Source: Rhodospirillales bacterium (GTDB lineage Bacteria; Pseudomonadota; Alphaproteobacteria; BOG-932; Roseiterribacteraceae). Taken from it: a stretch of DNA of 47,711 nt. The stretch is taken from positions 1 to 47,711 of the forward strand of contig JAQGIF010000007.1 of NCBI GenBank assembly GCA_028291345.1, read 5' to 3'. Below are positions 19,384-47,711 of the stretch, piece after piece. A program made the translations under genes and the position numbers. Position 1 is the first letter of the stretch. Each line of letters opens with the position of its first letter. The notes under the pieces are model-generated. The model saw only the letters and a list, made by a program, of their open reading frames with translations, searched no databases and was not told the DNA's origin.

Positions 19384-19485
19384 CGGATCTCAACTGAATG
19401 TCTAATATTTCAGAGATCTGAAAGGCTTATGGTCGCGATCAACGCGACCCGCCGAGACAGGGAGGGAAAATTGGAGAAAATATCC

Positions 19486-21885
19486 ATGCGGTCCGCATTG
19501 GCCGCCGTCGCTGCTATCGGGGTCGCGTTCAGCCCCCCAGTCCACGCGCAGCCCCCAAACCATGCCACGCCCGACCAAGCCTCGACTGCCGAACTGGAAG
19601 AGGTTGTTGTTACCGCGCGGCGGCGTGAGGAAAAACTTCAGGTCGTGCCGCTATCGGTACAGGCCTTTAGTGCTGAGCGGCTACAGCAGCATCACATCGA
19701 AAACGCGACCGACTTGTCGAAGATCGTCGCGTCCTTGAATGCGGCTGAAAGCAGCCGCAATGAGGAAAATTACGTCATACGGGGCCAGTCGGGGTCGGGC
19801 GCCTCGATCTCGGGTCAGCAGGTGACCGTGCCGACCTATTTCTCGCAAGTCCCGCTGCCCATCGGCGATGGTGGCGGGCCGGGGCGGTATTTCGACCTGC
19901 AGAATATCCAGGTGCTCAAAGGCCCACAGGGCACTCTGTTTGGTCGCAACTCGACAGGCGGCGCGGTCCTGTTCGAACCGCAGCGGCCGACGATGAACTT
20001 CGAAGGCTATGGCCAAGTGCAACTCGGCGATTACAACGATCACGGCTTCGAGGGAGCACTGAACGTGCCGGCAATTCAGGACAAGCTCGCTTTGCGTTTC
20101 GCGGCCAAGGTCGAGGAGCGCGACGGCTTCACCAAGGACATCACCAACGGACAGGAGCTCGACGACCGCAATTATACCAGCGGCCGCATTTCGGCGGTGT
20201 GGCGGCCGACCGACGCCATCGAAAATCTGATGATCGCCGATTACTACAATACCCACACCGCCGGCACCTCGAATGAGCTGTCCAACTATAATCCCGGCAA
20301 TATGGTGGTGAAGCTGTTCGGCAACGCCGTGCCCGCCGCCTATGCGCTACAACAGGCGCTGGGGCCGCGGAAGACCACCTCCAATACATTCGGCCTAGAC
20401 CGCATCGAGGCCTTGGGCGTATCCGACATCGCGACCTGGGACATCGCCGACAACCTGACCTTCAAAGCGATATTGGGCTATCGCAGCTTTAAGCAGCTGA
20501 ATCGCTTCGACTATGACGGCAGTTCGCTGACCTTTCTGAATTTCGACGCCTGCCAGTCCCCGGCGACATGTCATACCGCCTCGCCGGATGCGCCCTGGAC
20601 GGTGAATGTCGAGCAATTCACCGCCGAGCCGCAATTGCAGGGTCGGCTGTTCGACGACCGGTTGACCTTTACGCTGGGCCTATTCCTGTCGAACTCGGAT
20701 TCACCGGCCGCCAATTACAACCACCAATCCAGCGTCTTCGGCAGCGTCACTGACGCAAATAGCTACATCGATGACCGCAGCCGTGCGGTCTATACTCAGG
20801 AAACCTATGACCTGTCGGACTTCGTCGACGGGCTGAAGATCACCGGTGGCTATCGTTACACCCAGGATCACCGGGCGCTCAGCGTCTCGCAGGCTACCAG
20901 CGGGAAGTGCAATACCGGCACGACCGGCGCGCCGGCGCCAAACCCGGCGAACGCGCCGCAATGCCTCTCGGAATTCTCGATCGATCACGGCAGCACCAGC
21001 TACACGGCCGGCCTGGATTACCAGCTAAACTCGGACACCTTGCTCTATGTCATTCATCGGCGCGGCTATCGCGCCGGCGGCATCAATGCGATAGCCGGGC
21101 CGGTGCTGCTGGCCAACCCGCCGATCCCCAACGCCATCGGCTTGTTCACCTACGGCCCGGAATCGATCATCGACACGGAAATCGGCGTCAAGGCGGACTG
21201 GAAAGTCGGCGAGATGCCCGTGCGCACCAATCTGTCGGGCTACCACTCAATGGTCCACGACGCGCAGCTGAACCAGACGTTCGGCGTCGGCAGCCTGAAT
21301 GTCAGCGCGCTCACCAACGTTACCGAGGCTGAGGTCAACGGGGTGGAGTTCGACTTCACCGCCGTCCCGGTGCCATCGCTCGAGATCAGCGGTTCCTATG
21401 CCTATACCCAGGCCACGTACGGCCCTTATCTGGACTTCAACAACCGCAATCCGGTCACACAGCAGCCGACCCTGTCCACAGGCCGGGCCTATCCCTTTAC
21501 GCCGCTGAACAAGTTCAATGTCAGCGCCCGCTATCATGTCCCGGTTCCTGAACAATGGGGCGATCTCTATGGCAGCATCAGCTGGCTGCACAAATCGCAT
21601 GTGCTGCTGGGATTGATCCCGTTCTACACCAATGCCGGTGTCGTCTATGGCGACCCGGCAGCCTATCAAGGCGATGTCGATACGTACGATCTGACGATCG
21701 ACCTGAAACATGTGGCCAATACAGCGTTCGATGTCAGCTTTTTCGTGACCAACTTGACCGATGCCACCTATAAGATCGGCGGCGCATCGCTGATCGCCTC
21801 GTCGCTCGGCATCGATCAGGCGATCTATAACGAGCCGCGCATGTTTGGCTTTCAGATTCGATATACGTTCGGACCGGGGGAGTAA
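19486..21885 (+). CDS. TonB-dependent outer-membrane receptor (799 aa)
   Basis: TonB-dependent receptor without OmpA extension. The signal peptide MRSALAAVAAIGVAFSPPVHA is followed by the TonB box LEEVVVTARR. The plug domain includes VLKGPQGTLFGRNSTGGAVLFEP. The barrel ends RMFGFQIRYTFGPGE with the typical penultimate aromatic strand. The frame is open to 19429. The ATG at 19486 (GGAG nine bases upstream) best fits the signal peptide; a TTG at 19471 behind GGAGGG would add five residues. The stop is 36 bases before the PQQ-dehydrogenase gene, so the two are probably co-transcribed. The receptor may import the dehydrogenase substrate, PQQ itself or a metal chelate; the sequence does not decide. 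Confidence 0.92.
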   Translation: MRSALAAVAAIGVAFSPPVHAQPPNHATPDQASTAELEEVVVTARRREEKLQVVPLSVQAFSAERLQQHHIENATDLSKIVASLNAAESSRNEENYVIRGQSGSGASISGQQVTVPTYFSQVPLPIGDGGGPGRYFDLQNIQVLKGPQGTLFGRNSTGGAVLFEPQRPTMNFEGYGQVQLGDYNDHGFEGALNVPAIQDKLALRFAAKVEERDGFTKDITNGQELDDRNYTSGRISAVWRPTDAIENLMIADYYNTHTAGTSNELSNYNPGNMVVKLFGNAVPAAYALQQALGPRKTTSNTFGLDRIEALGVSDIATWDIADNLTFKAILGYRSFKQLNRFDYDGSSLTFLNFDACQSPATCHTASPDAPWTVNVEQFTAEPQLQGRLFDDRLTFTLGLFLSNSDSPAANYNHQSSVFGSVTDANSYIDDRSRAVYTQETYDLSDFVDGLKITGGYRYTQDHRALSVSQATSGKCNTGTTGAPAPNPANAPQCLSEFSIDHGSTSYTAGLDYQLNSDTLLYVIHRRGYRAGGINAIAGPVLLANPPIPNAIGLFTYGPESIIDTEIGVKADWKVGEMPVRTNLSGYHSMVHDAQLNQTFGVGSLNVSALTNVTEAEVNGVEFDFTAVPVPSLEISGSYAYTQATYGPYLDFNNRNPVTQQPTLSTGRAYPFTPLNKFNVSARYHVPVPEQWGDLYGSISWLHKSHVLLGLIPFYTNAGVVYGDPAAYQGDVDTYDLTIDLKHVANTAFDVSFFVTNLTDATYKIGGASLIASSLGIDQAIYNEPRMFGFQIRYTFGPGE

Positions 21886-21921: not shown

Positions 21922-23838
21922 ATGAGGGTCATTGCGGCGGCCATGTCAGGGCTAACCGCCTTGCTGTTTGCCTGGGGTGCTGGGGCCGATGCGCCGGCGG
22001 GCGGCGCGGCAATCTATGCCGAGCGCTGTTCGCTCTGCCATGGCTCCGTCCTGCGGGGTGGCGGCGCGCCACCTCTGGTGGGGCCGACCTTCCAGGCCAA
22101 GTGGACGGGCAAGCCGACCGAACAACTGCGCACGCTGATCTCTGACACAATGCCGTTGAACGCCGCAGGCAAGCTCATGCCCGGCGAGTATCAGGCGGTG
22201 ACCGATTTCATACTGCTCTCGAACGGCTATCCGGCGAACGACAAGGTGCTCAAGATCGACCCGGTCGCGGCGGCTAAGGTTGCCGAGGCACCTGAGCCGG
22301 TGCTGCCTGCGCCGGCCAAGCTGCTGGGCCAGGCCAGCGGCGCAAGCCCGTCCGACGACGATATCGCGAACCCATCCGACAATGACTGGCTGACCTATAA
22401 TCGCGATTATACCGGCCAACGTTTTTCGGCGCTAAACCAGATCACGTACGACAATGTGAAGCATCTGGCGCCGTCCTGCATCTTCCAGACCGGCGACACC
22501 GGCAGCTTCGAGGCCTCCCCAGTCATCTATCAGGGCCGGCTCTATATCACGACGACGCACGGCACCTTCGCCATCGATGCCGCGACCTGCAAGGAATTGT
22601 GGCGGCATACCTACACCCCGCCAGGGGCCGAGGGGCTGCCGGTCAATCGCGGCGTCGCGCTCTATCGCGGCAAGGTGCTGCGCGGCACATCGGACGGCCA
22701 TATCATTGCCCTGGACGCCGCGACAGGCGCGCTTTTATGGGATGTCTGGGTCGCCAACAGCCTGCACGGCGCCAATATCAACGGAGCGCTGGTTGCCTTC
22801 GGCGGCAAGGTGTTCACGGGGCAGGGCGGTGCAGACCGCGGCCATACCGGTCATATCTATGCGTTTGATGTCGAAACCGGGGAACTGGCCTGGACATTTA
22901 ATACAATCCCGACCGGTAAGGAGCCCGGCGCAGAGACTTGGGCCAAGGGCACGGAACTGGGAGGTGGATCGTCTTGGACCAGCATCACCGTCGATCCCAA
23001 GACGCGGCAGCTATTCGTGCCGATCGGTAATCCGGGCGCGGACATGGATGGGGCGCTTCGGCCCGGAAACAATCTCTATACCGACTCGGTGGTCGTGCTG
23101 AACGCCGACACCGGGAAGCTGGATTGGTACGTTCAGCAGATACCGCACGACATCCATGACTGGGATACCGCCGCTGCGCCCGCCCTCTATGAGATCGGCG
23201 GTCACAAGTTCATGGCGGTCGCCAGCAAAGATGGCTGGCTCTATATCTATGACCGTGACAAGCACACCCTGATCGCCAAGTCCGAAATCAGCATTCACCT
23301 TAACGACGACAAGCCACTGGCGGCGGGCGTCGAAATGCGCGTCTGTCCCGGTACGCTGGGGGGCGCGGAGTGGAACGGGCCGGCCTTCGATCCGAAGACC
23401 AAAATGCTTTTCGTCAATTCGGTCGATTGGTGCGGCGGGTTCAAGCGGCAGACAACGGCCGGCAGCACGTTCGGCGGTAGCCTGAATTTCGATCCGATCG
23501 AGAAGGTGACAGGCTGGATCCATGGCTTCGACGCTGCGACCGGCGCCGTGAAATGGACCCGGCACACCGACGGGCCGATGGTGGCGGGTATCACGCCGAC
23601 TGGCGGCGGGTTGGTGTTCACCGGCACACCATCGGGCCTATTCTGGGGTCTGAATGCAGCGACCGGCGACATACTCTACGAATTCAATACCGGCGGCGCG
23701 ATCGGCGGCGGCATCTCCAGCTATGCCGTGCGCGGTCGTCAATATCTGGCGGTGACCTCGGGCAGCGCGTCTAAAACGATCTGGAAAACAGCCGGCGCGC
23801 CGACGGTGATCGTGTTCGCCTTACCCGCCCGACCGTGA
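21922..23838 (+). CDS. Quinohaemoprotein (PQQ plus cytochrome c) alcohol dehydrogenase
   Basis: A 638-residue periplasmic dehydrogenase that oxidises alcohols with PQQ and passes electrons to its own haem. Order: signal peptide (about 1-22), cytochrome c domain with CSLCH (Cys36, Cys39, His40) and probable axial Met77 (SDTMPLN), a linker to about 145, then an eight-bladed PQQ propeller (WLTYNRDYTGQRFSALNQI at its start; repeated ALDAATGALLWDVW, AFDVETGELAWTFN and VLNADTGKLDWYVQ blades). The catalytic-Asp region reads PHDIHDWDT (Asp413, Asp415). A second acidic residue two after the catalytic Asp is a feature of lanthanide-dependent enzymes but also occurs in other branches. The N-terminal haem domain is the arrangement of sphingomonad polyvinyl alcohol dehydrogenases, whereas common quinohaemoprotein ethanol dehydrogenases carry haem at the C-terminus. 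Start: GGAGGCGGG before ATG. Confidence 0.88.
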   Translation: MRVIAAAMSGLTALLFAWGAGADAPAGGAAIYAERCSLCHGSVLRGGGAPPLVGPTFQAKWTGKPTEQLRTLISDTMPLNAAGKLMPGEYQAVTDFILLSNGYPANDKVLKIDPVAAAKVAEAPEPVLPAPAKLLGQASGASPSDDDIANPSDNDWLTYNRDYTGQRFSALNQITYDNVKHLAPSCIFQTGDTGSFEASPVIYQGRLYITTTHGTFAIDAATCKELWRHTYTPPGAEGLPVNRGVALYRGKVLRGTSDGHIIALDAATGALLWDVWVANSLHGANINGALVAFGGKVFTGQGGADRGHTGHIYAFDVETGELAWTFNTIPTGKEPGAETWAKGTELGGGSSWTSITVDPKTRQLFVPIGNPGADMDGALRPGNNLYTDSVVVLNADTGKLDWYVQQIPHDIHDWDTAAAPALYEIGGHKFMAVASKDGWLYIYDRDKHTLIAKSEISIHLNDDKPLAAGVEMRVCPGTLGGAEWNGPAFDPKTKMLFVNSVDWCGGFKRQTTAGSTFGGSLNFDPIEKVTGWIHGFDAATGAVKWTRHTDGPMVAGITPTGGGLVFTGTPSGLFWGLNAATGDILYEFNTGGAIGGGISSYAVRGRQYLAVTSGSASKTIWKTAGAPTVIVFALPARP

Positions 23839-35784: not shown

Positions 35785-36330
35785 ATGGTCGATGCCACGC
35801 ATCATGGCGACGGCGAGGGGCAAACCCGGCGTGAGTTCCTCTATCTGGCCGCCGGCGCAATCGGCGCGGTCGGGTCCGCTGGCGTCGCCTGGGAGCTGAT
35901 CAACAGCATGAATCCCGCCGCTGACACGCTGGCGCTGTCAACCATCGACGTCAATCTGGCGCCGATCCCCGAGGGCATGGGCATCGTCACCATGTGGCAG
36001 GGCAAGCCGGTCTTCGTGCGTCACCGGACAGCCGAGGAAATCAAGCAGGCTGAGGAAGTGAAGCTGTCGGATCTCATCGACCCGGCCACCGACCAGTCGC
36101 GGGTCAAGAAATCTCCCTGGCTAATCCTGATCGGCATCTGCACTCATCTGGGCTGTATCCCGCTGGGCAACAAGCCGAGCGATCTTCGTGGCGATTACGG
36201 CGGCTATCTCTGCCCTTGCCATGGGTCGCAATACGACACGTCCGGCCGCGTGCGCCATGGGCCCGCTCCGCTGAACCTGGCCGTGCCACCCTATAATTAC
36301 ACCAGCGACACCGTCGTTCGTATCGGCTGA
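35785..36330 (+). CDS. petA: Ubiquinol-cytochrome c reductase Rieske iron-sulfur subunit
   Basis: A 181-residue Rieske protein of the bc1 complex, carrying electrons from ubiquinol to cytochrome c1. The N-terminus has a twin-arginine motif [11 protein letters not shown] before its membrane helix, so it is Tat-inserted. The 2Fe-2S ligands are Cys119 and His121 (CTHLGC, disulfide Cys124) and Cys143 and His146 (CPCHGS, disulfide Cys145). GGGAG lies seven bases upstream of the ATG at 35785; a TTG just before it is in frame but unlikely. It heads the petABC operon and is divergent from trmL. Confidence 0.96.
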
Positions 36331-36350
36331 CGGAAAAAAGGACCGCTCGC

Positions 36351-37622
36351 ATGGCGCATACAAAAACCCCTTCCACCTTTCAGAACCCGGTGATCCGCTG
36401 GGTCGACGACCGGCTGCCGATCTTCACCATGATCTCCAAGGAGTACGGGGTTTTCCCGACGCCGCGGAATTTCAACTATCTATGGAATTTCGGCGCGCTC
36501 GCCCTGGTAATGCTGGTCATCATGATCATCACCGGCGTTTTCCTGGCGATGCAGTATACGCCGCACGCCGATTTGGCCTTCGATTCGGTCGACCGCATCA
36601 CGCGCGACGTCAATGGGGGCTGGCTGCTGCGGTCGCTACACGCCAACGGCTCGTCGATGTTCTTCCTGGTTGTCTATATCCACATTTTCAGGGGCATGTA
36701 TTACGGGTCCTACAAGCGGCCCCGTGAGCTTCTATGGTTGTTCGGCGCGGCCATCTATCTGCTGATGATGGCGACGGCGTTCCTGGGCTATACGCTGCCC
36801 TGGGGCCAGATGAGCTTTTGGGGCGCCACCGTGATCACCAATTTCTTCACGGCGCTGCCCTTCGTTGGCAAGGCAATCACCACCTGGCTGTGGGGCGGTT
36901 TCGCTGTCGCCAACCCGACCTTGAACCGCTTCTTCGCCCTGCACTATCTACTGCCCTTCGTGATCGCCGCTGTCGTGTTCCTGCATGTTTGGGCGCTGCA
37001 CGTCACTGGGTCGAACAACCCGCTGGGCATCGAACCGAAGAGCGACAAGGATACGCTACCCTTCCATCCGTACTATACGATGAAGGACTTGTTCGGCATG
37101 TCGGTGTTCCTGCTGATTTATGCCGTGATCGTATTCTACATCCCGGACTATCTCGGCTCACCTGATAACTATGTGAAGGCCAATCCGCTGGTCACGCCTC
37201 CGTCGATCGAGCCGGAATGGTACTTCCTGCCGTTCTACGCAATCCTGCGGTCGGTTCCGAGCAAACTGTTGGGTGTCATCCTGATGTTCGGCGCGGTCGT
37301 CATGATCTTCCTGATGCCGTGGCTCGATACCTCGAAAGTTCGCAGCGCGAAGTTCCGTCCATGGTATCAGTGGTGCTTCTGGTTCTTTGCGTTCGATTCG
37401 CTGCTGCTTGGCCTTGTCGGGTCGCAGCATCCCGAGGGTATCTGGATCCTGCTTGGTCGGATCGGCACCCTCTACTATTTCGGTTTCTTCCTGATCCTGC
37501 TGCCGTTCCTCGGCTGGTTCGAAAGGACCCTGCCTTTGCCGGCCAGCATCAGCGAGTCGGTTCTGGGCGGCGGGAAACTGGCCAGTTCAGCAGTCGCCGC
37601 AAAGCCGATGGAGAAGGCATAA
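36351..37622 (+). CDS. petB: Cytochrome b of the bc1 complex
   Basis: A 423-residue inner-membrane cytochrome b with eight helices carrying haems bL and bH. Histidine ligands are in the second helix ([21 protein letters not shown]) and fourth helix ([20 protein letters not shown]). The quinol-site motif [14 protein letters not shown] is intact. AAAGGA precedes the ATG by eight bases, 20 bases after the petA stop. The C-terminal tail past the last helix is longer than minimal ([18 protein letters not shown]), as in other alphaproteobacteria. Confidence 0.97.
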
Positions 37623-38387
37623 ATGTCGAACTTTCGTGCCTTCTTGATGGGCGGCGGGCTTGCGCTCGCCACCCTGACCACAGCCTCCGCGCAGGAGCTG
37701 CCCGAGCCAGCGAAGCAGGATTGGAGCTTTTACGGCGCGTTCGGCACCTATGACCAGGCAGCTTTGCAACGCGGGTTCCAGGTCTATCGCGAAGTGTGCG
37801 CGGCCTGCCACTCGATGAGCCTGCTCGCCTATCACGACCTCAGCGGCATCGGCTACACGCCGGACGAGATCAAGGCGATCGCGGCCTCGGTGTCGGTTCC
37901 CGATGATCCGGACGACACGGGCGAAATCAAAGATCGTCCTGGCCGCCCGTCCGACCGGTTCAAGGCTCCGTTCCCGAACGAGAAGGCTGCCGCTGCCGCC
38001 AATAACGGTGCGGTGCCCAAGGATCTGTCGCTGATCGTGCGCGGCCGCAAATACGGCCCCGATTACATCTTCGCGCTATTGACCGGCTTCAAGGACCCTC
38101 CCCCAGGCATGAAGATGGCTAACGGCATGAATTACAATACGGCCTTCCCCGGTAATCAGATCGCAATGCCGCCGCCGCTCAGCGACGACCGGGTGACCTA
38201 TGCCGATGGCACCAAGGCGACGCTCGCCCAGGAAGCGCACGACGTCGTGACGTTCCTGTCTTGGGCGTCGGACCCACATCTGGAAGAGCGACACCGCCTT
38301 GGCGCCCGAGTCATTATCTTCCTTGCGGCGTTCAGCGGCGTCATGTATGGCGTGAAACGCAAGGTCTGGTCCAAGGTCGCTCACTAA
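37623..38387 (+). CDS. petC: Cytochrome c1 of the bc1 complex
   Basis: A 254-residue membrane-anchored cytochrome c1 that passes electrons to soluble cytochrome c. A signal peptide (cleavage near ASA|QE, residue 23) is followed by the haem site CAACH (Cys59, Cys62, His63). The distal Met ligand is probably in the GNQIAMPPPLSDDRVTYADG block. A C-terminal helix (ARVIIFLAAFSGVMYGVKRKVWSKV) anchors it. The ATG directly follows the petB TAA, with GAGAAGG upstream; it ends at a terminator, so petABC is a closed operon. Confidence 0.97.
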   Translation: MSNFRAFLMGGGLALATLTTASAQELPEPAKQDWSFYGAFGTYDQAALQRGFQVYREVCAACHSMSLLAYHDLSGIGYTPDEIKAIAASVSVPDDPDDTGEIKDRPGRPSDRFKAPFPNEKAAAAANNGAVPKDLSLIVRGRKYGPDYIFALLTGFKDPPPGMKMANGMNYNTAFPGNQIAMPPPLSDDRVTYADGTKATLAQEAHDVVTFLSWASDPHLEERHRLGARVIIFLAAFSGVMYGVKRKVWSKVAH

Positions 38388-38410
38388 GATCCAGATTGGC
38401 TTGCTACAGC

Positions 38411-38446
38411 AACGGCCGCCGGTGATCCTCATCGGTGGCCGTTTTG
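38411..38446 (+). terminator. Intrinsic terminator of petABC
   Basis: Arms AACGGCC (38411-38417) and GGCCGTT (38437-38443), extended by an imperfect inner stem, are followed by a TTTT tract. It lies 23 bases after the petC stop. Confidence 0.8.
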
Positions 38447-38628
38447 CGTCTGCGCAGAATCATGTCCTGGCAATGTGCGCATTGTTGCAATTTAGCCACT
38501 GCACCTTGGTGCTTTCTTCGAATTACCCGGATAATTTTACAAATGTGAATTGACCCGGAGTCTCAATTACCCCTAGTTCTTGCGCGCAATGAAATCGTAG
38601 CGATCGTCCGACATCGATTCGGTACCCA

Positions 38629-38648
38629 ATCGGGGCAATTGCCCCGAT
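38629..38648. promoter_or_regulatory. Perfect 20-base palindrome in receptor leader
   Basis: ATCGGGGCAA directly followed by TTGCCCCGAT forms a perfect palindrome 41 bases upstream of the ATG at 38690. It could be a dimer-binding operator or a leader hairpin. The leaders of the next two receptor genes also contain a hairpin or palindrome at a similar place, with different sequence. Confidence 0.45.
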
Positions 38649-38689
38649 GGGAAATCCGGACTGGGGACGATCCAAGAGGGGGAAATTGG

Positions 38690-41566
38690 ATGACGTCACG
38701 CTTAATCGCGGCGCTCTGCTGCACGTCGGCACTCAGCGCGTTCTCATCATTCGGCGTTGTATACGCGCAACAGAGTGCTCAGCCCGGCTCAAGTGCTGGC
38801 CAGCTCGAAGAAATCGTCGTTACCGCGCGCAAGACTGAGGAAAAACTCCAGGCTGTGCCGGTGTCTATCACGGCCTTTAGCGCAGCCAGGCTGGATCAGG
38901 CGAACATCACCACGCCGACCGGGCTGAACGGGCTGGTCCCTAACCTAGTCATAACCCAAGGGTCGGGGTACGTGACCTCAATCAATGTCGCCATCCGCAG
39001 CATCATCCAGGCCGACAACAACCTGACGAGCGACGCGCCGATCGCGCTGTATTTCAACGGAGTCTATAACGGCCGACAGATGGGCGGCTTGTTCGACCTT
39101 GTCGATCTGGACCGTGTCGAGGTTCTGCGCGGACCGCAAGGAACACTGTTCGGACGCAATACGACCGGCGGCGCCGTTAACATCTATACTCGCGCCCCCA
39201 AACGGGAATTCCAGATCGAGCAGCGCCTGGAATATGGCAGCGACAACGAGTTCGAAAGCCGGACCACCCTGGATACCGGCGACATCGCCGACACCGGCCT
39301 CCGTGCCTTGCTGGCCTACAAGCATAAATCTCGCGATGGGATCGTCGACAACGCCTCGACACCGGCCAGCGACGGTCCGGGCTCGATCGATTCCAATGCG
39401 GTGTATTTCCAGCTGCATGGCGATCTGAGCGATTCGCTGTCGTTCGATTATCGGTTCGATTACACAAACCAGCATGGCGCAGCCCTCGCGACCCAAGTTA
39501 CCGCGGCGACCCCGCAGGCTCTTGCCTATTTCGGATCGTCGCCACGAAACGGGGGCGCACCGTTCGTGGTCAGTACGACGCGACTCGATCACTTCAACGT
39601 CTACAATCAGAATCCGCCAGACCATGACGAGATACTGGGGCATTCGCTGACGATCGATTACGACCTCAACGATTATATCCACCTCAAGAATATCGCCGCG
39701 TATCGTTCATTCGCGGACGACTCGCATTCCGACCAGACCGCCCAAGGGCATCTGATCGCCCCCGTCGCCGATTTCACGAACCCGGCGGGTGGCTTTGTCA
39801 GCTTGAAGACGGTCAGCCCCTTCGCGACGCTGTGCCCGGGCAATGATCCGCAGTTGCCGCTGAACAATTGCGACCATCAGCGGCAGTATCAGATTTCTGA
39901 GGAATTTCAGGCCACCGGCACGGTCGGGGAGTTCAAATATGTCGGTGGCCTCTATTTCTTCGACGAGAAGGTGCATGAGGCCGATCCGGAATTCCTGACC
40001 TTTCTGTTCAATCCCGCTGCGCAGGCGGCAACCTTTGGCCCCGGTCTGGCCGCGCTATTCCAGTCAAATCCTGCGGTTCAGGCGGCCGGTGGCAATATCG
40101 GCTTGAACCTCGCGCCCAACGATAATTACTACGGCGAAGCCAAGACCTTCTCCGCCTATGGCCAAACCTATTATCGTCCGGATTTCCTGGACGATAAATT
40201 CGAATTCGCCTTTGGTCTGCGCTATACGTTCGATCAGAAGACGATCCAGATCAAAAAGTTTAGCGGTTTCGCGCCCCTGGACTTCTCGAATCCTGCGGTG
40301 AACGGCTCAGTCGTGCAATACGGAGCGGCCAATTTCCACAATATCGGCTGGCTGTTCTCGGGCAGCTACCAGTTTACTGACGACGTGATGGGCTATGCGA
40401 AGATCACCAACGCCTATAAATCGGGTGGTTTCGCACCGCGCTCCTCCGGCGCTGCTTACCAGCCGGAATCGAACACGGCTTACGAATTCGGTGTAAAGAG
40501 TGAGTTTCTGGACCATCGGCTGCGCATCAACGCAGACGTATTTTATATGAAATACGAGAAGATCCAGATCAACGTCTTTGCGTCCGGCACCGGGGGTGCG
40601 GCGAGCAATACGATCAACGCGGGCGAGGCGACCTATAAGGGCGGTGAACTCGAAATCAGCTACATTCCGGCAGAAGGATTCCTGATCGACGGTGGTTTGG
40701 GTTACACCGATCCGAATTTCCAGGTCTATCTGTTTCGCGACCCTGTCACCAATCAGGTCATCAACGTGGCAGATCAGGCCCATTTCGGTTATTCGTCCAA
40801 GCTGACCTACAATATCGGGCTGCAGTACGAGTTTCCGCCGTTCAGCTTCGGCGATCTGACCTTGCGACTGGACTATAGCTTCCAAAGCGCGCGCAAGTTC
40901 CACCCGTTGACGATTACGAACCCGTTCAACGAGATCATCGACACCGCAAACTATCACAATCTGTCCGCGAATGTGACGCTGGCTAATATTCCGACCAGCT
41001 TCGGCGATGTGGAGGCCAAGGCTTTCGGCACCAACCTGATCAATGAAGATCAGAGGATTGCCGGTATCGACTTCGGGGGGCTTGGCTTCGGCAACAATGC
41101 CTATGGGCGCAAAATCGCTGCTGGGTTCCAGCTGACCTATAGGTTCAAACCGGAAGTGGAAACAGCGGCTGCTCCGGCGGCCTATGTCCCGCCGCCGGCC
41201 GTGGCGCCCGCGCCGTCGGTGCCGAAGAGCTATCTGGTATTCTTCGACTTCAACAAGTCCGACCTGACGCCTCAAGCTGTCACCATCGTCGATCAGGCGG
41301 CGCATAACGCCGGCCCTGCGAAAGTGACCAAGCTGGAAGTGACCGGCCACACTGACACTGTCGGCTCCGACGCTTACAATATGCGTCTCAGCCGCCGCCG
41401 CGCGGAGTCGGTCGCGGCGCAGCTGGAGAAAGATGGCATTCCCTCCAGCGACATCGAGATCATCGCCAAGGGCAAGCGGGATCTTCTCGTCCCGACCGCT
41501 GATGGCGTGCGGGAACCACAGAACCGACGTGTTCAGATCGTCTATGAGGGCGGCGCGACCTCCTAA
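38690..41566 (+). CDS. TonB-dependent receptor fused to C-terminal OmpA domain (copy A)
   Basis: A 958-residue fusion. Order: signal peptide (about 1-27, cut near VYA|QQS), TonB box LEEIVVTARK, plug with LYFNGVYNGRQ and VEVLRGPQGTLFGRNTTGG, a 22-strand-type barrel whose last strand is GFQLTYRF, a Pro/Ala linker (AAPAAYVPPPAVAPAPSVPK) and an OmpA_C domain from about residue 845. That domain contains YLVFFDFNKSDL, GHTDTVGSDAYNMRLSRRRAESV and NRRVQIVYEG; Asp889 and Arg904 match the two residues that hold diaminopimelate in Acinetobacter OmpA. The barrel end faces the periplasm, so the extra domain could grip peptidoglycan. The ATG has GAGGGGGAAATTGG upstream; the frame is open to 38639. First of three tandem fusions. 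Confidence 0.93.
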   Translation: MTSRLIAALCCTSALSAFSSFGVVYAQQSAQPGSSAGQLEEIVVTARKTEEKLQAVPVSITAFSAARLDQANITTPTGLNGLVPNLVITQGSGYVTSINVAIRSIIQADNNLTSDAPIALYFNGVYNGRQMGGLFDLVDLDRVEVLRGPQGTLFGRNTTGGAVNIYTRAPKREFQIEQRLEYGSDNEFESRTTLDTGDIADTGLRALLAYKHKSRDGIVDNASTPASDGPGSIDSNAVYFQLHGDLSDSLSFDYRFDYTNQHGAALATQVTAATPQALAYFGSSPRNGGAPFVVSTTRLDHFNVYNQNPPDHDEILGHSLTIDYDLNDYIHLKNIAAYRSFADDSHSDQTAQGHLIAPVADFTNPAGGFVSLKTVSPFATLCPGNDPQLPLNNCDHQRQYQISEEFQATGTVGEFKYVGGLYFFDEKVHEADPEFLTFLFNPAAQAATFGPGLAALFQSNPAVQAAGGNIGLNLAPNDNYYGEAKTFSAYGQTYYRPDFLDDKFEFAFGLRYTFDQKTIQIKKFSGFAPLDFSNPAVNGSVVQYGAANFHNIGWLFSGSYQFTDDVMGYAKITNAYKSGGFAPRSSGAAYQPESNTAYEFGVKSEFLDHRLRINADVFYMKYEKIQINVFASGTGGAASNTINAGEATYKGGELEISYIPAEGFLIDGGLGYTDPNFQVYLFRDPVTNQVINVADQAHFGYSSKLTYNIGLQYEFPPFSFGDLTLRLDYSFQSARKFHPLTITNPFNEIIDTANYHNLSANVTLANIPTSFGDVEAKAFGTNLINEDQRIAGIDFGGLGFGNNAYGRKIAAGFQLTYRFKPEVETAAAPAAYVPPPAVAPAPSVPKSYLVFFDFNKSDLTPQAVTIVDQAAHNAGPAKVTKLEVTGHTDTVGSDAYNMRLSRRRAESVAAQLEKDGIPSSDIEIIAKGKRDLLVPTADGVREPQNRRVQIVYEGGATS
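41177..41566 (+). repeat. OmpA-module direct repeat, copy A
   Basis: The linker plus OmpA-domain coding segment is repeated, nearly identical in sequence and reading frame, at 44289-44678 and from 47339 to the window edge. Differences are mainly third-position changes. This makes a three-copy direct repeat of about 390 bases spaced about 3.1 kb apart. Confidence 0.9.
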
Positions 41567-41589
41567 CGAGCAACTTTCAGCTAAACATC

Positions 41590-41625
41590 AGGCGGCGTTC
41601 CGTTGAGGGACGCCGCCTTTTTCTT
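41590..41625 (+). terminator. Intrinsic terminator of receptor copy A
   Basis: A 12-pair stem (AGGCGGCGT plus TCC against GGG plus ACGCCGCCT, one wobble possible) with loop GTTGA and a TTTTTCTTT tract lies 23 bases after the stop. Its AGGCGGCG/CGCCGCCT core recurs after copy B. Confidence 0.9.
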
Positions 41626-41667
41626 TGTGCGTACCTCAATTGTTACATCTTACACTTGTATTAATTC

Positions 41668-41685
41668 TTGACGACTCGCGTATTT
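41668..41685 (+). promoter_or_regulatory. Candidate promoter element of receptor copy B
   Basis: TTGACG (41668-41673) followed after six bases by GTATTT (41680-41685). The same pair with the same spacing is found upstream of copy C (44754-44771), and both lie about 130 bases before the ATG. A normal -10 at 17-base spacing is not evident, so this is a shared motif rather than a proven promoter. Confidence 0.3.
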
Positions 41686-41725
41686 AGGGGGAAGCTAACA
41701 GCGATTGGTAAAAATCAATCTATCG

Positions 41726-41740
41726 CCCGGAAAAACCGGG
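41726..41740 (+). promoter_or_regulatory. Leader hairpin of receptor copy B
   Basis: CCCGG and CCGGG flank AAAAA, 62 bases upstream of the ATG at 41802. The related string GGAAAA(T)CCGGG also appears in the copy C leader near 44813. Confidence 0.3.
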
Positions 41741-41801
41741 GTGCCTTAAAGTCAAAGACTTGAGTGCAATGGCTCAGAGATGAGCATGTAGGGAGGAAGA
41801 A

Positions 41802-44678
41802 ATGTCAGCACGTTTGACGTTGGTGCTTTGCGCCACAGTTGCGTCCGTTGGACTAACCGGCGCTAAACCAACATTCGCTCAATCCGATCAGGCGACTTCC
41901 GGTGCCAGTACCGGACTAGAAGAAATTGTCGTCACGTCGCGTCGGCGCGAGGAGCGCGTACAGACCGTGCCGCTGGCGGTTACCGCCTTCAGCCAGGCGA
42001 CGATCGAGAAAAATCAGATCTACGAGATTCACGATCTGGCGCAGCACGTGCCGTCATTGGCTGTCAGCCTCAGCCAGTCAGACTCGAACGCGCTCTATTC
42101 CGGGCAGGTCCGTCTGCGCGGTCTGCCTGGCACCGCGATTTACCTGGCTGACGTACCGATCGGCAACGCCGACTATCAGGGCGGCACAGGCCTGCAGCAT
42201 GGCCTATCGGAGGGTAACTTCTACGATCTCGAAGACGTTGAAGTCGTGAAGGGGCCGCAAGGCACTCTGTTCGGCAAGAATTCGGTCGGTGGTTTAATCT
42301 CCATTCAACCGCACCGTCCGACGAATGACTATGAAGGTTATCTTCGCCTCGGACTGGGCAATTATGACGACAAGGAAATCGAGGGCGCGGTTAATATTCC
42401 GATCATCCAGGACAAGCTGCTGCTCCGTATCGCCGGGCAGGCGCAAGACCGTTCGGGCTATACGATCGATAGATCGAACGGAAAGGACCTCGATAATAAG
42501 AATTACTATGCATGGCGGGTCGGCATTCTGGTACGTCCGACCGACGATATTCAGAACTATTTCATGTATGACGGCTATTTCCAGAATACGCATGGTTCCG
42601 CCGATATCGTCAGCTTCATCAATCCGAAATTTGTCTTCGCGCAAATCCCGCTCGGGCCCGGCTTCAGCCTTCCGCTGACGCTGGGCACCGGTCCCAGCGT
42701 ACTTGGCCTTTTGAATCCGGCCACCGCCGGCGCCACGGTTGGGCAGGCGATCGCGGCTGGTGGATTCGGTCTCTACCAAGGCCTCCCAGCCGCTTTCGCC
42801 GCCCAGCAGGCGCTGGGGCCGCGCGCGATTATCGGTGATAATTTCCAGAAGATCGGCAAGGATTATTTCTACGGCTTTACCGACGTGTTTACCTGGGACG
42901 TGAACGATAATCTGACGATCAAGAACATCGCCGCGGCGCGTATCTTCAAGCAGTTGGCGACTGATGATTATACGCCGATCGGCTCCGCTTACCCGATCCT
43001 GAATATCGGCGTTCCCGGAAACAATGTGCAATGGGGCAATAACGAGGCGTCATATACGGAGGAATTCCAGCTTCAGGGCAAGTCTCTCAATAATAAATTG
43101 ACCTGGGTTGCGGGCGGATTTCTCCAATATGATCATCCGATCGGCGATACGCTGCTCGGATCCGCGGCGCTCGGCAATTCCATTGCTGGCGCGGTCAGCT
43201 TCTTCCATTTTCATATCATCAATCGCAGCCGCGCTGCCTTCGTCCATGGCGAATACGACCTTGGCGACTATGTCAGCGGCCTGAAGCTGACAGCAGGCTA
43301 TCGCTACACTTTCGATGAAGTGTCGACGGGCGCGCGGGGAACTTCGAATTCGGACGCCGTCGTCCGGAACGCGGCAGGGGTGGCAACAAACTGTACGGGT
43401 GTGTTCAATACGGATAACAATTGCTATCAGTCCGCACCCTTCGCGCATTTCAGCGCCTATGGCTGGAATGCGAGCCTCGAGGAGCAGTTGACGCCGGACT
43501 TGCTGCTATATGTCCGCGCCGGCAACGCCTATCGGCCAGGCGGCTCCAACCTTAATGTCACGCCCGACTTCGCCAATTTCGGCCCTGAGCACATTACTGA
43601 CGTCGAAATCGGCGTGAAGGCCGATTGGGACTTCATGGGTATGCATGCGCGCACAAACGCGGACCTCTATCACAGCGATTACAAAGCCATTCAGGTTCAG
43701 AGACTGGTCACGCTGGCGGATGCGACGGGTGCGCTACATACAAATACGATCAACCTCAACGCCGCCAGCGCGACGATCGAGGGCGGGGAATTCGAAGGCA
43801 CCTTCCTGCCGTTCAAAGGTGTCGAGATTTCGCCGCACGCTTCGTATATCTTCCCGAAATACGACGCGTATCCGGTCTCGTTCAGCCCGCTCGGTTCCGA
43901 GACCCCGTTCCTCTATGTCCCAAAATGGTCGTATGGCATCACTGGCACATATCATCTACCTGTGGACGAATCCTGGGGCGATATTGCCCTGTCGGCGACC
44001 TATTCCTGGTACGGTCATCAATATGTCTCGGTATCGCCGGGTGAAATCTATCTAATCGCACCGTCCTATGAACTCCTCGATGTCAGGGCCGATTGGACAA
44101 ACGTGTTTGGGTATCCGGCGGACATCAGCTTCTTCATGAAGAACGCGCTCGATACGACCTATGTTCAGGGCGCGGTGCCGATCTATACCCAGCTCGGCTT
44201 CACCTCTTTGACCTACAACCCGCCGCGCATGTTCGGATTCAACGTTAAATATCGCTTCTCGGCGGCGGAAGCGCCGGCGGAGCCCGCAGCGGCCTATGTG
44301 CCGCCGCCGGTCGTCGCTCCGGCCCCGGCGACGCCGAAGAGCTATCTGGTGTTCTTCGACTTCAACAAGTCTGACCTGACGCCCCAGGCAGTGACTATCG
44401 TCAACCAGGCAGCGGCGAATGCCGGTCCGGCGAAGGTGACCAAGCTCGAAGTGACGGGCCACACCGACACGGTCGGCTCGGACGCCTACAACATGCGTCT
44501 CAGTCGCCGCCGTGCGGAGTCGGTCGCGGCCCAGCTCGAGAAGGACGGTATCCCATCATCCGAGATCGAGATCATCGCCAAGGGCAAACGCGACCTGCTC
44601 GTGCCGACCGCTGACGGCGTGAGGGAGCCGCAGAACCGCCGCGTTCAGATCGTCTATGAGGGCGGCCCAACCTCCTAA
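41802..44678 (+). CDS. TonB-dependent receptor fused to C-terminal OmpA domain (copy B)
   Basis: A 958-residue fusion with the same plan as copy A. Signal peptide MSARLTLVLCATVASVGLTG... (cut near TFA|QSD), TonB box LEEIVVTSRR, and a plug lacking the usual LYxDGVY: it has VRLRGLPGTAIYLADVPIGN and VEVVKGPQGTLFGKNSVGG. The barrel ends RMFGFNVKYRF, then the linker with AAYVPPPVVAPAPATPK and an OmpA domain from about residue 845 with Asp889 and Arg904 conserved. Plug and barrel show little obvious similarity to copy A, while the last 125 residues are almost identical. GGGAGGAAGAA sits right before the ATG. It lies 235 bases after copy A with its own leader and terminator, so it is probably a separate transcription unit. 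Confidence 0.93.
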   Translation: MSARLTLVLCATVASVGLTGAKPTFAQSDQATSGASTGLEEIVVTSRRREERVQTVPLAVTAFSQATIEKNQIYEIHDLAQHVPSLAVSLSQSDSNALYSGQVRLRGLPGTAIYLADVPIGNADYQGGTGLQHGLSEGNFYDLEDVEVVKGPQGTLFGKNSVGGLISIQPHRPTNDYEGYLRLGLGNYDDKEIEGAVNIPIIQDKLLLRIAGQAQDRSGYTIDRSNGKDLDNKNYYAWRVGILVRPTDDIQNYFMYDGYFQNTHGSADIVSFINPKFVFAQIPLGPGFSLPLTLGTGPSVLGLLNPATAGATVGQAIAAGGFGLYQGLPAAFAAQQALGPRAIIGDNFQKIGKDYFYGFTDVFTWDVNDNLTIKNIAAARIFKQLATDDYTPIGSAYPILNIGVPGNNVQWGNNEASYTEEFQLQGKSLNNKLTWVAGGFLQYDHPIGDTLLGSAALGNSIAGAVSFFHFHIINRSRAAFVHGEYDLGDYVSGLKLTAGYRYTFDEVSTGARGTSNSDAVVRNAAGVATNCTGVFNTDNNCYQSAPFAHFSAYGWNASLEEQLTPDLLLYVRAGNAYRPGGSNLNVTPDFANFGPEHITDVEIGVKADWDFMGMHARTNADLYHSDYKAIQVQRLVTLADATGALHTNTINLNAASATIEGGEFEGTFLPFKGVEISPHASYIFPKYDAYPVSFSPLGSETPFLYVPKWSYGITGTYHLPVDESWGDIALSATYSWYGHQYVSVSPGEIYLIAPSYELLDVRADWTNVFGYPADISFFMKNALDTTYVQGAVPIYTQLGFTSLTYNPPRMFGFNVKYRFSAAEAPAEPAAAYVPPPVVAPAPATPKSYLVFFDFNKSDLTPQAVTIVNQAAANAGPAKVTKLEVTGHTDTVGSDAYNMRLSRRRAESVAAQLEKDGIPSSEIEIIAKGKRDLLVPTADGVREPQNRRVQIVYEGGPTS
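44289..44678 (+). repeat. OmpA-module direct repeat, copy B
   Basis: Second copy of the linker plus OmpA-domain segment described at 41177-41566. It encodes the same 114-residue domain with only a few replacements (for example Asn for Asp in TIVNQAAANAG and Glu for Asp in SSEIEII). Confidence 0.9.
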
Positions 44679-44694
44679 AAAAGGCTCTAGAGCC

Positions 44695-44728
44695 AGGCGG
44701 CGCCTCGAAGGGGGCGCCGCCTTTTTTT
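44695..44728 (+). terminator. Intrinsic terminator of receptor copy B
   Basis: Ten-base perfect arms AGGCGGCGCC (44695-44704) and GGCGCCGCCT (44713-44722) followed by seven T residues, starting 17 bases after the stop. It resembles the copy A terminator. Confidence 0.92.
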
Positions 44729-44753
44729 ATGCGTCATTCTGACGCGATTTTGC

Positions 44754-44771
44754 TTGACGTCTTCTGTATTT
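44754..44771 (+). promoter_or_regulatory. Candidate promoter element of receptor copy C
   Basis: TTGACG (44754-44759), six bases, then GTATTT (44766-44771), matching the element before copy B. Downstream, TACCCCAATCGG (44783-44794) resembles TACCCAATCGG in the copy A leader (38623-38633). Confidence 0.3.
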
Positions 44772-44860
44772 TCAAATGAACTTACCCCAATCGGCGAAGC
44801 GTGCGACGGGGAAAATCCGGGTACGAAAAATGCCGGAATAGAGCGATGAAGTCGGGAGCC

Positions 44861-44874
44861 GTGGCCTAGGCCAC
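44861..44874. promoter_or_regulatory. Perfect 14-base palindrome before copy C start
   Basis: GTGGCCT directly followed by AGGCCAC lies just ahead of the Shine-Dalgarno GGGGAG of copy C. It may be an operator or may fold near the ribosome site. Confidence 0.4.
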
Positions 44875-44887
44875 TTGGGGAGAAATC

Positions 44888-47711
44888 ATGTCAGCACGTT
44901 TAATGTTGGCGCTATGCGCCACGGCCGCGGTTGCCGGGCTCACGGGGGGCGCGCGAACCTCCATGGCACAGACCGATCAGCCAACCACCGCCGCGCCGGC
45001 GACTGCAGGTCTGGAAGAGGTTGTTGTCACGGCCCGGCGTCGTGAAGAAAAGGCTCAAGCGGTGCCGATCACGCTGCTTACCTTCACGCCCGAGACGCTG
45101 CAGAAGCGGGATATCCGCGACTCGCTCACCCTGACCGACTCGATCCCGGGCTTCAACGGCGCCACCGGCGGCTCGCTCGGCCTGACCTATACCTTCCTGC
45201 GCGGCGCCCCGGGCGTGATCTTCTATTGGAATCAGGTCCCGATCAACGTTAACAACCAGGCGCAGGGCTTTTATTTCGACCTCGCCAACATCCAGGTTCT
45301 GTACGGTCCGCAGGGCACCCTGTTCGGCCTTTCGAACGACGCAGGCGCGATTTTGTTCGAGCCGCAGCATCCGAAGAACGATTTCGAAGGCTACGGCCAG
45401 GTCACGTTCGGCGATTACGGCCGCCAAACCATCGAGGGCGTGGTCAACGTGCCGGTGATCGAAGACAAGTTGCTGGTTCGGGTCGGCGGCCAGTATCAGA
45501 AACAGGACGGCTATCAGCATGTGATCGCACAGAACATCGATTTGCTGAACCAGAATTACTGGAATTTCCGCGGATCGGTGAGCTTCTCGCCGACAGACAA
45601 TTTCCAGAACGAACTGATGGTCAACTATTTCAATACGCAATATCTACCCGGCGCGTTTACCTATGCCGGCTTCAATCCTGCTCCGGCGCAGGCATTCGGC
45701 GCCCCGTTGCAAACGATTCTGAACTTTGGCAAGGCAGGGTTTCGCGGGCCGGGTCCTGCGGCCCAGCTTGCCGGGGTGAACGTCAATCTGGCTTCGCTGC
45801 AGGCACAGCAGGAGGCGCTGGGCAAATATACGCTCGCCTCGCTCGCCTTTGTTCCTACCGCCGTGCTGACGCAGTTGAATATCGTCGATACTGCATCGTT
45901 CGATATCAGTGAGAATCTCACTCTGAAGAACATCGCCGGCTATGCGGAGATCTACAATTATGTAAAGGCGGATATCGGCGGTCTGGCGCTCGGCCTGTTG
46001 AATGGCCCGACTCCGTTGCTCAACCAACGGAGGGGACCGACAGTCCAATATAATGAGGAAATCCAGATCGTCGGCAATCTGTTCGACAGCAAGCTGAACT
46101 TTCAGGCGGGTTTCTTCAACCAGTGGGGTGGCGCCGCTAGCGGTGCCGGTGGGGGTGCTCCTTCGACGACGACCGCGCCCTATGGCATCGAATACACGAA
46201 CAATTTTGGTGGCCTCTCGATTACCGGCGCGTCACTGACCCAGACGTCCCGATCGAATGCTGTCTACGCCCAGGGCACCTATAATCTCAGCGACTATATC
46301 GAAGGGCTGAGCGTCACGGGCGGTGTCCGCTATAATTGGGACAAATTCTACGCCCAGGGGAACACTTACTCTGCAACGGGTGTGTTACTTAAGCCGACTT
46401 GCATAATAAATGGAGCTCCCACCACAGTTGGGTGTAGTACCTCGCAGGTTGCCCGTTTCAGGTCTCCCAGTTACTCTTTCCAGTTGAACTATCAGTGGCG
46501 GCCGTCCACGATGTTCTATTTCAACAATAGCCTCGGGTATAAAACCGGCGGCTTCAACGGCCAAAACCTGGTCGCCTTCCAGATCTTCCGACCGGAGCAC
46601 CTGAACAACTATGAGGGCGGCGTGAAGTCGGACTTCGACCTGGGTGCGATTGGCATGGAAAGCGTCAAGGCACGTGTCAATGGCAGTATGTTCTATGGGG
46701 TCTATCGCGGCATCGAAATTCAGACCACAGGTGCGTATTTGACGACAGCCGGCAACAAGTCGCTGGCAACGCCTTATCTCGACGTCGGCGATGGCGATCT
46801 CTATGGGTGGGACCTTCAACTCACTGTGCTGCCCACGCCTGATCTCGAAATCTACGCCGACGCGGAATATAACAAGGGAAAATATAAGAATTTCCAGGGT
46901 CCCAATGCGGCGGGCACCGGACAGACCTCGGTTCCTGGGGTCGCCTTCGAAATTCTGCCACAGTATAAATTCAACGGCAGCGCGACCTATCATTTTTCGT
47001 TCATCGATAAGTCTTATGGCGACGTCAGCCTGACAGGCAGCTATTCGTGGGTCCAGCACTCGATTAATAGTGACGTCGCTGGTATCGGCTATGCTGACTT
47101 GCTGCCGGGACACCACAATGTCGATTTGAGCCTCGATTGGAAGGACATTTTGGGACATACCGGGCTCAGCGCGCGGGCGTTTGTCACCAATTTGACGAAC
47201 AATTCCGTCGTCAACGGTTGCTTGTGCGCCTATCGCGCAATTGGAGAAATCGGCTATCAGCCGGCCCAACCTCGCATGGGTGGCTTTACGCTGCGCTATG
47301 AGTTCGGGCCTGACAGCTTTCGCACCACCGCGGCCGCCGCGGCTTACGTGCCGCCGCCGGTCGTCGCCCCCGCGCCGTCGGTGCCGAAGAGCTATCTGGT
47401 GTTCTTCGACTTCAACAAGTCGGACCTGACGCCTCAGGCTGTCACCATCGTCGACCAGGCCGCGCATAATGCGGCTCCGGCCAAGATGACCAAGCTGGAA
47501 GTGACTGGCCACACCGACACGGTCGGCTCGGACGCCTACAATATGCGTCTCAGCCGCCGCCGCGCGGAGTCGGTCGCGGCCCAGCTGGAAAAGGACGGCA
47601 TTTCCTCTTCCGACATCGAGATCGTCGCCAAGGGCAAGCGCGACCTGCTGGTCCCGACTGCAGATGGCGTACGGGAACCGCAGAACCGGCGTGTCCAGAT
47701 CGTCTATGAGG
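44888..47711 (+). CDS. TonB-dependent receptor fused to OmpA domain (copy C, 3' end outside window)
   Basis: The frame is open from the ATG at 44888 to the window edge: 941 complete codons plus one base, no stop. By comparison with copies A and B only about five codons are missing. Signal peptide MSARLMLALCATAAVAGLTG (nearly that of copy B), TonB box LEEVVVTARRREEKAQAVP, and a plug with FLRGAPGVIFYWNQVPIN and VLYGPQGTLFGLSNDAGAILFEP, where the normal RN(T/S)xGG is replaced by LSNDAG. The barrel ends MGGFTLRYEF, then the linker AAAYVPPPVVAPAPSVPK and the OmpA domain from residue 833, with the conserved HTDTVGSDAYN and LSRRRAESV motifs. GGGGAG precedes the ATG. It is followed by nothing in view; whether the array continues is unknown. 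Confidence 0.92.
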   Translation, partial: MSARLMLALCATAAVAGLTGGARTSMAQTDQPTTAAPATAGLEEVVVTARRREEKAQAVPITLLTFTPETLQKRDIRDSLTLTDSIPGFNGATGGSLGLTYTFLRGAPGVIFYWNQVPINVNNQAQGFYFDLANIQVLYGPQGTLFGLSNDAGAILFEPQHPKNDFEGYGQVTFGDYGRQTIEGVVNVPVIEDKLLVRVGGQYQKQDGYQHVIAQNIDLLNQNYWNFRGSVSFSPTDNFQNELMVNYFNTQYLPGAFTYAGFNPAPAQAFGAPLQTILNFGKAGFRGPGPAAQLAGVNVNLASLQAQQEALGKYTLASLAFVPTAVLTQLNIVDTASFDISENLTLKNIAGYAEIYNYVKADIGGLALGLLNGPTPLLNQRRGPTVQYNEEIQIVGNLFDSKLNFQAGFFNQWGGAASGAGGGAPSTTTAPYGIEYTNNFGGLSITGASLTQTSRSNAVYAQGTYNLSDYIEGLSVTGGVRYNWDKFYAQGNTYSATGVLLKPTCIINGAPTTVGCSTSQVARFRSPSYSFQLNYQWRPSTMFYFNNSLGYKTGGFNGQNLVAFQIFRPEHLNNYEGGVKSDFDLGAIGMESVKARVNGSMFYGVYRGIEIQTTGAYLTTAGNKSLATPYLDVGDGDLYGWDLQLTVLPTPDLEIYADAEYNKGKYKNFQGPNAAGTGQTSVPGVAFEILPQYKFNGSATYHFSFIDKSYGDVSLTGSYSWVQHSINSDVAGIGYADLLPGHHNVDLSLDWKDILGHTGLSARAFVTNLTNNSVVNGCLCAYRAIGEIGYQPAQPRMGGFTLRYEFGPDSFRTTAAAAAYVPPPVVAPAPSVPKSYLVFFDFNKSDLTPQAVTIVDQAAHNAAPAKMTKLEVTGHTDTVGSDAYNMRLSRRRAESVAAQLEKDGISSSDIEIVAKGKRDLLVPTADGVREPQNRRVQIVYE
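47339..47711 (+). repeat. OmpA-module direct repeat, copy C (truncated by window)
   Basis: Third copy of the linker plus OmpA-domain segment, cut by the right edge. It carries a few replacements relative to A (APAKMTK, GISSSDIEIVAKG). Confidence 0.88.

Follow-up and report, generated by a model that had tools for sequence, protein, structure and literature searches.

The final part of a 47,711-nucleotide (nt) stretch of a Rhodospirillales bacterium (contig JAQGIF010000007.1, hereafter the window; G000:C298:1-47711, G000 being the window's genome) carries three consecutive frames on the + strand, at 38690-47711, designated as genes A, B, and C, each of which encodes a TonB-dependent receptor (TBDR) that is extended by a Pro/Ala linker and a C-terminal OmpA domain. 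We found that the linker and the domain form a module with sharp limits, about 390 nt long and referred to as the cassette, which is present on receptors in many parts of the receptor tree. The cassette evolves in concert within genomes, clustering by genome, whereas the receptors cluster by orthology. We consider it probable that these receptors are TonB-dependent importers that double as non-covalent tethers between the outer membrane and peptidoglycan (PG), and that their cassette was spread and homogenized by ectopic recombination.

An earlier note, made from the sequence of this DNA, had described A, B, and C as tandem TBDR-OmpA fusions with Asp889 and Arg904 conserved in copies A and B, and had proposed a domain search. 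The search agreed with this description: Pfam detected the Plug domain (PF07715; 6e-15, 6e-11, and 2e-5) and the OmpA domain (PF00691; 6e-20 to 9e-19) above the curated cut-offs in a single frame of all three proteins. The Asp/Arg pair is found at the positions named in A and B and as Asp877/Arg892 in C; we take these residues to be those that bind diaminopimelate (DAP) in related domains. The Pfam barrel model PF00593 had no match in A, B, and C, while it does match other tailed receptors (e.g., L020, L035, and L040). OMP_b-brl and OmpA_membrane had no Pfam match in A, B, and C either, so that no 8-stranded OmpA transmembrane barrel is present there. Signal peptides were judged by eye, and so were the candidate TonB boxes IVVTAR, IVVTSR, and VVVTAR around residues 42-45, on our assumption that an IVVTAR-like motif represents the TonB box.

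The three genes belong to a genome-wide family, which lies beyond what the window sequence alone could reveal. The assembly of G000 (5.63 Mb in 401 contigs; completeness 97%, contamination 3.9%) gave 64 Plug and 39 OmpA profile matches, and an open-frame cassette is present on 28 of the 64 Plug loci (24 complete, 4 cut by contig edges). Frames of at least 850 amino acids (aa) with a cassette number 27, comprising 26 TBDRs and the autotransporter L037; among these receptors, a contig edge cuts the cassette of the one on C37, and window gene C ends near its last residues. Two further receptors, on C65 and C86, have a cassette cut by a contig edge, and the former shows the linker and the first cassette residues only. 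Two more Plug loci carry the cassette behind an interruption (an in-frame TAG on C252, and the second copy on C317), and a cassette lacking a Plug match was found on C201, in a disrupted receptor, and on C164, where it is cut at the contig edge. Genome G001 of the same genus contains 20 frames of 909-1116 aa with a cassette; these include the autotransporter L088, and at least 16 of the other 19 have a Plug match with the same contig and frame length. In G002, also of this genus and 65% complete, nine frames with a cassette reach 745 aa or more.

When 26 of the 27 frames were aligned (alignments A1 and A2; L040 was left out), the C-terminal alignment contained 58 invariant columns, the Asp and Arg among them. 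Asp889, Arg904, and the N..LS..RA..V residues are the same in every row of A1, which holds 25 receptors and L037 (26 rows). The cassettes of the 25 receptors (excluding L037, and L040, whose cassette is cut) show a median identity of 86.0% at the aa level and 80.0% at the nt level. The receptor parts of these proteins have a median aa identity of 32% in pairwise alignments; the multiple alignment gave 26%.

The limits of the module are visible in DNA. In 12 paralogous pairs picked for alike cassettes, an identity of about 45-70% gives way to one of about 75-100% roughly 390 nt ahead of the stop codon, and this step falls at the AAYVPPP linker. Three of these pairs include a member that a contig edge truncates; past the stop, identity drops in seven of the other nine, whereas it extends further in L030/L032 (by about 100 nt) and in a tandem pair from G001. 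The cassettes of L017 and L040 are 99.1% identical over the portion common to both, and their receptors are 18% identical. The tail is scattered over the receptor tree yet not random, and its gain or loss is repeated: with 67 rows, 36 of them tailed, the tail state needs 16 changes, at least 11 of which lie on starred branches. For three tailed receptors from related genomes, the best match in G000 lacks the tail, with identities of 80, 59, and 54% in this one-directional comparison. These tailless receptors end with the last barrel strand or soon after it, and the downstream flanks do not align. The tail state thus differs even between best matches that are about 80% alike, L085 being tailed and L154 ending at the last barrel strand.

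Concerted evolution was evident when the cassette was compared with the barrel next to it in 16 of the 19 reciprocal-best receptor pairs (left out were the autotransporter pair and two pairs with the short row L091). At the nt level, the cassette of a same-genome paralog was closer than that of the ortholog in 14 and 15 of the 16 pairs, depending on the side from which they were viewed, whereas for the adjacent 115 barrel residues the paralog was closer in 4 and 1 of 16. The ortholog ranked first in the partner genome by nt in 14 of the 16 pairs for these barrel residues and in 2 of 16 for the cassette. In approximately unbiased (AU) tests with 47 receptors of the three genomes (47 of 52 rows; L037, L088, L089, L091, and L098 were left out), the receptor tree was rejected by the cassette data (p 3e-102) and the cassette tree by the receptor data (p 1e-8). 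The genome label changes 7 times on the cassette tree (14 or more in 500 shuffles) and 20 times on the receptor tree (shuffle mean 18.5).

Exact tracts and fourfold sites, for which 18 of the 19 reciprocal pairs were used, gave a similar picture. Exact shared tracts of at least 60 nt, counted in the cassette only, were present in 13 of the 456 pairs within a genome and absent from all 769 pairs between genomes (0/751 non-orthologous, 0/18 orthologous). At fourfold sites, identity within genomes minus that between genomes was +0.0345 for the cassette (0 of 1000 permutations as high) and -0.0004 for the receptor part (508 of 1000 permutations). A further fourfold test, comparing the best paralog with the ortholog, still contained the autotransporter pair and was discarded as uninformative, because the barrel control also scored 16/16. 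A single ancient fusion followed by vertical descent is rejected, because the cassette and receptor trees reject each other and the adjacent barrel keeps the orthology that the cassette does not. Purifying selection alone is also rejected, because fourfold sites and exact tracts of the cassette cluster by genome, while fourfold sites of the receptor part do not.

The tandem array itself differs between the two species, consisting of A-B-C in the window, whereas the G001 array has five genes, all of type B or C, and in addition a decayed cassette. The best G001 match of window gene A lies on another contig than the G001 array. Inside this array, at G001:C234:19500-20100, a barrel-end remnant is followed by the decayed solo cassette.

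Of the three window proteins, B was modeled at full length. The AlphaFold model resembles solved TBDRs, FyuA being the best match (Foldseek E 7.6e-34, template modeling score by target 0.82), and its plug and barrel match those of solved siderophore receptors. The cassette of B modeled alone (67 sequences) exhibited an OmpA_C/Pal fold matching Pal, the C-terminal domain of OprF, and A. baumannii OmpA. Its fold matches include the ligand-bound structures 3td5 (this A. baumannii OmpA with a PG peptide) and 2aiz (uridine diphosphate-MurNAc peptide), and another close match is YfiB, solved in complex with its partner YfiR.

In G000, the same domain family also occurs on the autotransporter L037 (C327), on a small OmpA-like barrel of the OMP_b-brl type (C310), and on a PagL-like barrel (C54), and a BBP2 porin (C220) carries it N-terminally. 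Because both chain ends of outer-membrane barrels are normally periplasmic, N- and C-terminal placements are both compatible with an anchor. On the cassette tree, stand-alone barrels group with their orthologs, L026 with L196 and L036 with L195. L036 (G000:C54) and L195 (G001:C61) are PagL-like lipid A deacylase barrels followed by the OmpA domain (Pfam was run on L036). Frames of BBP2/OmpL-type porins with a near-N-terminal OmpA domain are L200 (the same gene as L031), L197, L198, and L090:595-2688, of which L031 and L090 were run against Pfam and L197 and L198 were assigned by likeness. Autotransporters and PagL-like, OmpA-like, and BBP2 barrels are not known to use TonB.

The earlier note had viewed the fusion as an importer fixed to the cell wall and had suggested that the tail may hold the receptor near TonB/ExbBD, stabilize the envelope, or concentrate receptors for bulky substrates. 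The architecture and the PG-contact residues stand, its topology argument agrees with the established orientation of barrel ends, and fixation of the importers to the wall is a good candidate reading. As for the roles, a purely transport-related one is weakened because the domain family is also found on autotransporter, PagL-like, OmpA-like, and BBP2 barrels, an occurrence that is better accounted for by outer membrane-PG tethering in general. It is this occurrence on other barrel families that makes us rank tethering first, as the probable role, and receptor positioning second.

The proposed mechanism starts from the observed architecture, in which the C-terminus of the barrel continues through a flexible Pro/Ala linker into an OmpA/Pal-type domain. 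The fused receptors are predicted to be exported and inserted as barrels, and they putatively perform TonB-dependent transport. The tail, given its fold and invariant residues, would bind DAP of the wall PG, which makes PG binding in vivo a prediction, and each tailed receptor would thereby act as a non-covalent wall tether. Crossovers in the last barrel strand or the linker may have spread the tail between genes, and gene conversion would keep the copies alike within a genome. The selected benefit would be envelope tethering and not transport as such.

Several alternatives were weighed against tethering. A role of the tail chiefly in transport, whether by keeping receptors at the wall layer, by clustering them, or by placing them within reach of TonB-ExbBD, seems to us rather unlikely. 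More than half of the G000 receptors manage without a tail, and related OmpA domains occur on the four other kinds of barrels, although the homogenized cassette itself is mostly on TBDRs (26 of the 27 long frames in G000) and a TonB_C gene adjoins the tailed receptor on C65. RmpM is reported to act in this manner in trans for neisserial receptors, an association for which PMC8497027 cites Prinz and Tommassen (2000). We regard as improbable a largely non-adaptive spread, in which a tolerated, recombination-prone 3' end was copied by ectopic crossovers with little benefit per receptor, and concerted evolution is a consequence of sequence identity. The gain or loss of the tail on many branches, the interrupted copies and the remnant cassette, the existence of close relatives with and without the tail, the different composition of the array in the two species, and the long exact tracts within genomes are all consistent with it; however, the 58 invariant columns, Asp and Arg included, compared with fourfold sites that are 52-57% identical, point to purifying selection, with the reservation that conversion too lowers diversity.

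A role in substrate handling or sensing, with the OmpA domain binding cargo, TonB, or another periplasmic partner instead of the wall, would be in line with the complex of YfiB and YfiR, but the invariance of the presumed DAP-binding pair and its surrounding motif makes it very improbable. An artefact of assembly or frame reading is hardly credible: seven contig edges of G000 lie at cassettes and the genomes are fragmented, but long unbroken frames are found in three assemblies, the boundary position is identical in the 12 compared pairs, and the sister-genus genome G003, which consists of 3 contigs, also contains a fusion.

Some observations weigh against wall tethering by a spreading cassette. 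The structure prediction proposed by the earlier note yielded a TBDR barrel in B and an OmpA fold for the isolated tail, but the tail came out unresolved in the full-length model (predicted local distance difference test score of 27-51 per block of ten), and the model of the cassette alone is of moderate quality (mean 73, predicted template modeling score 0.59). An open fused tail is absent from 36 of the 64 Plug loci, broken tailed copies exist (C252, C201, and the second copy on C317), and our survey of other wall tethers (e.g., Lpp) covered OmpA-domain proteins only. Seven contig edges of G000 fall in or just before cassettes, and all three congeneric genomes are fragmented, two of them being named as, or likely to be, metagenome-assembled genomes (MAGs). 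The receptor tree, a quick one with flagged long branches, shows some clustering of the tail (shuffled labels average 22.5 changes; a value as low as 16 came up in 1 of 500). In addition, the majority of cassette pairs within a genome do not stem from recent copying (fourfold identity averaging 0.52-0.57), and part of the protein identity is therefore due to purifying selection.

A bolder view, which we offer tentatively, is that the PG-anchor cassette is a recombination-driven domain element that was grafted repeatedly onto TBDRs and an autotransporter within one genus and homogenized by gene conversion, and that much of the outer-membrane proteome is thereby anchored to the wall, importers replacing dedicated tethers. 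If this is true, attachment of the outer membrane to the wall would be borne by many importers, and it becomes testable whether receptors must be fixed or mobile for TonB-dependent uptake. The cassette is also an unusually clear case of bacterial concerted evolution, with one domain on dozens of dispersed, very different genes and the adjacent barrel as a built-in control.

The order was sampled by five genomes. In the sister genus, one fused receptor was found in each of G003 and G004 (L190 and L191, among 47 and 52 Plug matches), with Plug and OmpA in one frame (Pfam was run on L190). Each of these genomes has three cassette-model matches at E 1e-20 or better. The OmpA domains of L190 and L191 group with other OmpA proteins of G003 and G004 in a quick tree of few columns, and this fusion probably arose independently. 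The matches listed for samples of the class (385 genomes) and of the phylum (398 genomes) included no fused receptor from outside this family; at most 10 candidates per genome were scored in a ranking that favors OmpA domains resembling the cassette, and absence elsewhere is not established by it. The frames examined there were too short or turned out to be other proteins. The candidate in G045 lay in a long frame (711 aa), but the OmpA frame itself is 359 aa; the long frames of G517 and G744 contain cadherin-like domains; that of G589 has a weak Surface_Ag_2 match; and those of G246 and G326 are autotransporter-OmpA fusions without a TBDR. The latter two, L204 (G246, 2066 aa) and L205 (G326, 1510 aa), are very long autotransporters with a C-terminal OmpA domain from another alphaproteobacterial family.

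A plasmid search with protein B gave no tail among the best 30 of 425 records, whose alignments reach no further than residue 819. One contig (L090, JABDBE010000044.1) of a MAG with Acidobacteria in its title bears a receptor with the cassette and also a BBP2 porin, both similar to those of the alphaproteobacterial genus. Two of the five matches in this MAG are strong and both lie on that contig, which is probably misbinned. No description of a TBDR fused to an OmpA domain was found in the literature searched, most subscription papers and the InterPro architectures being beyond reach. A barrel joined to OmpA_C is already known, and what appears to be new here is a TBDR as the barrel.

TonB_C genes are present in G000. 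One of them lies directly upstream, on the same strand, of the receptor with the start of a cassette at G000:C65:3-2833. At G000:C3:3365-4049, a 336-aa frame has two successive TonB_C matches, and a third, weak match lies right behind it in another frame.

The features of the three window genes are listed below. An alternative start of gene A is the TTG at 38639, which would give 975 aa. The scan for terminator-like sites, which gave the hairpins after A and B, found 7 in all, no more than in shuffles (mean 8.7); Rfam had no match across 36000-47711. Two more TBDRs in the window, at 1015-3180 and 19429-21882, have no tail, and the second adjoins a pyrroloquinoline quinone (PQQ)-dehydrogenase-like gene at 21922-23835.

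Table 1. Coordinates of genes A, B, and C and of their domains in the window
Feature	Position	Strand	Description
Gene A	38690..41566	+	TonB-dependent receptor with C-terminal OmpA domain, 958 aa from ATG at 38690
Plug domain of A	38846..39175	+	PF07715
Cassette of A	41177..41566	+	Linker AAYVPPP... and OmpA domain (PF00691 at 41240-41527)
Terminator-like hairpin after A	41590..41618	+	Consensus match only
Gene B	41802..44678	+	TonB-dependent receptor with C-terminal OmpA domain, 958 aa
Plug domain of B	41958..42293	+	PF07715
Cassette of B	44289..44678	+	Linker and OmpA domain (PF00691 at 44352-44639)
Terminator-like hairpin after B	44695..44722	+	Consensus match only
Gene C	44888..47711	+	TonB-dependent receptor with C-terminal OmpA domain; 941 aa visible, window ends before any stop
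Plug domain of C	45056..45343	+	PF07715, weaker match
Cassette of C	47339..47711	+	Linker and OmpA domain (PF00691 at 47402-47689), truncated near end

The fused receptors can be compared with several known systems. OmpA and OprF likewise consist of an outer-membrane barrel, a linker, and a periplasmic PG-binding OmpA_C domain, but their barrel is 8-stranded, whereas here it is a plugged TBDR, and many receptors per genome share nearly one tail. The autotransporters L204 and L205 also combine a large barrel with a C-terminal OmpA domain, but are not TBDRs, while L190 and L191 of the sister genus have Plug and OmpA in one frame and differ in being found once per genome with an OmpA type of their own. 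In Agrobacterium and relatives without Lpp, outer-membrane barrels are covalently tethered to PG, according to PMC11527210. These covalent tethers (Agrobacterium, Brucella, and Coxiella), made by LD-transpeptidases, resemble the fused receptors in that barrels link the outer membrane to PG; the link there is enzyme-made and covalent, whereas here it is predicted to be non-covalent, through the OmpA domain. RmpM of Neisseria, an OmpA-like PG-binding protein, is reported in PMC8497027 to associate with TBDRs. In both cases an OmpA-type PG-binding domain is linked to TBDRs; RmpM is a separate protein acting in trans, whereas the OmpA domain described here lies in cis, in the reading frame of the receptor itself.

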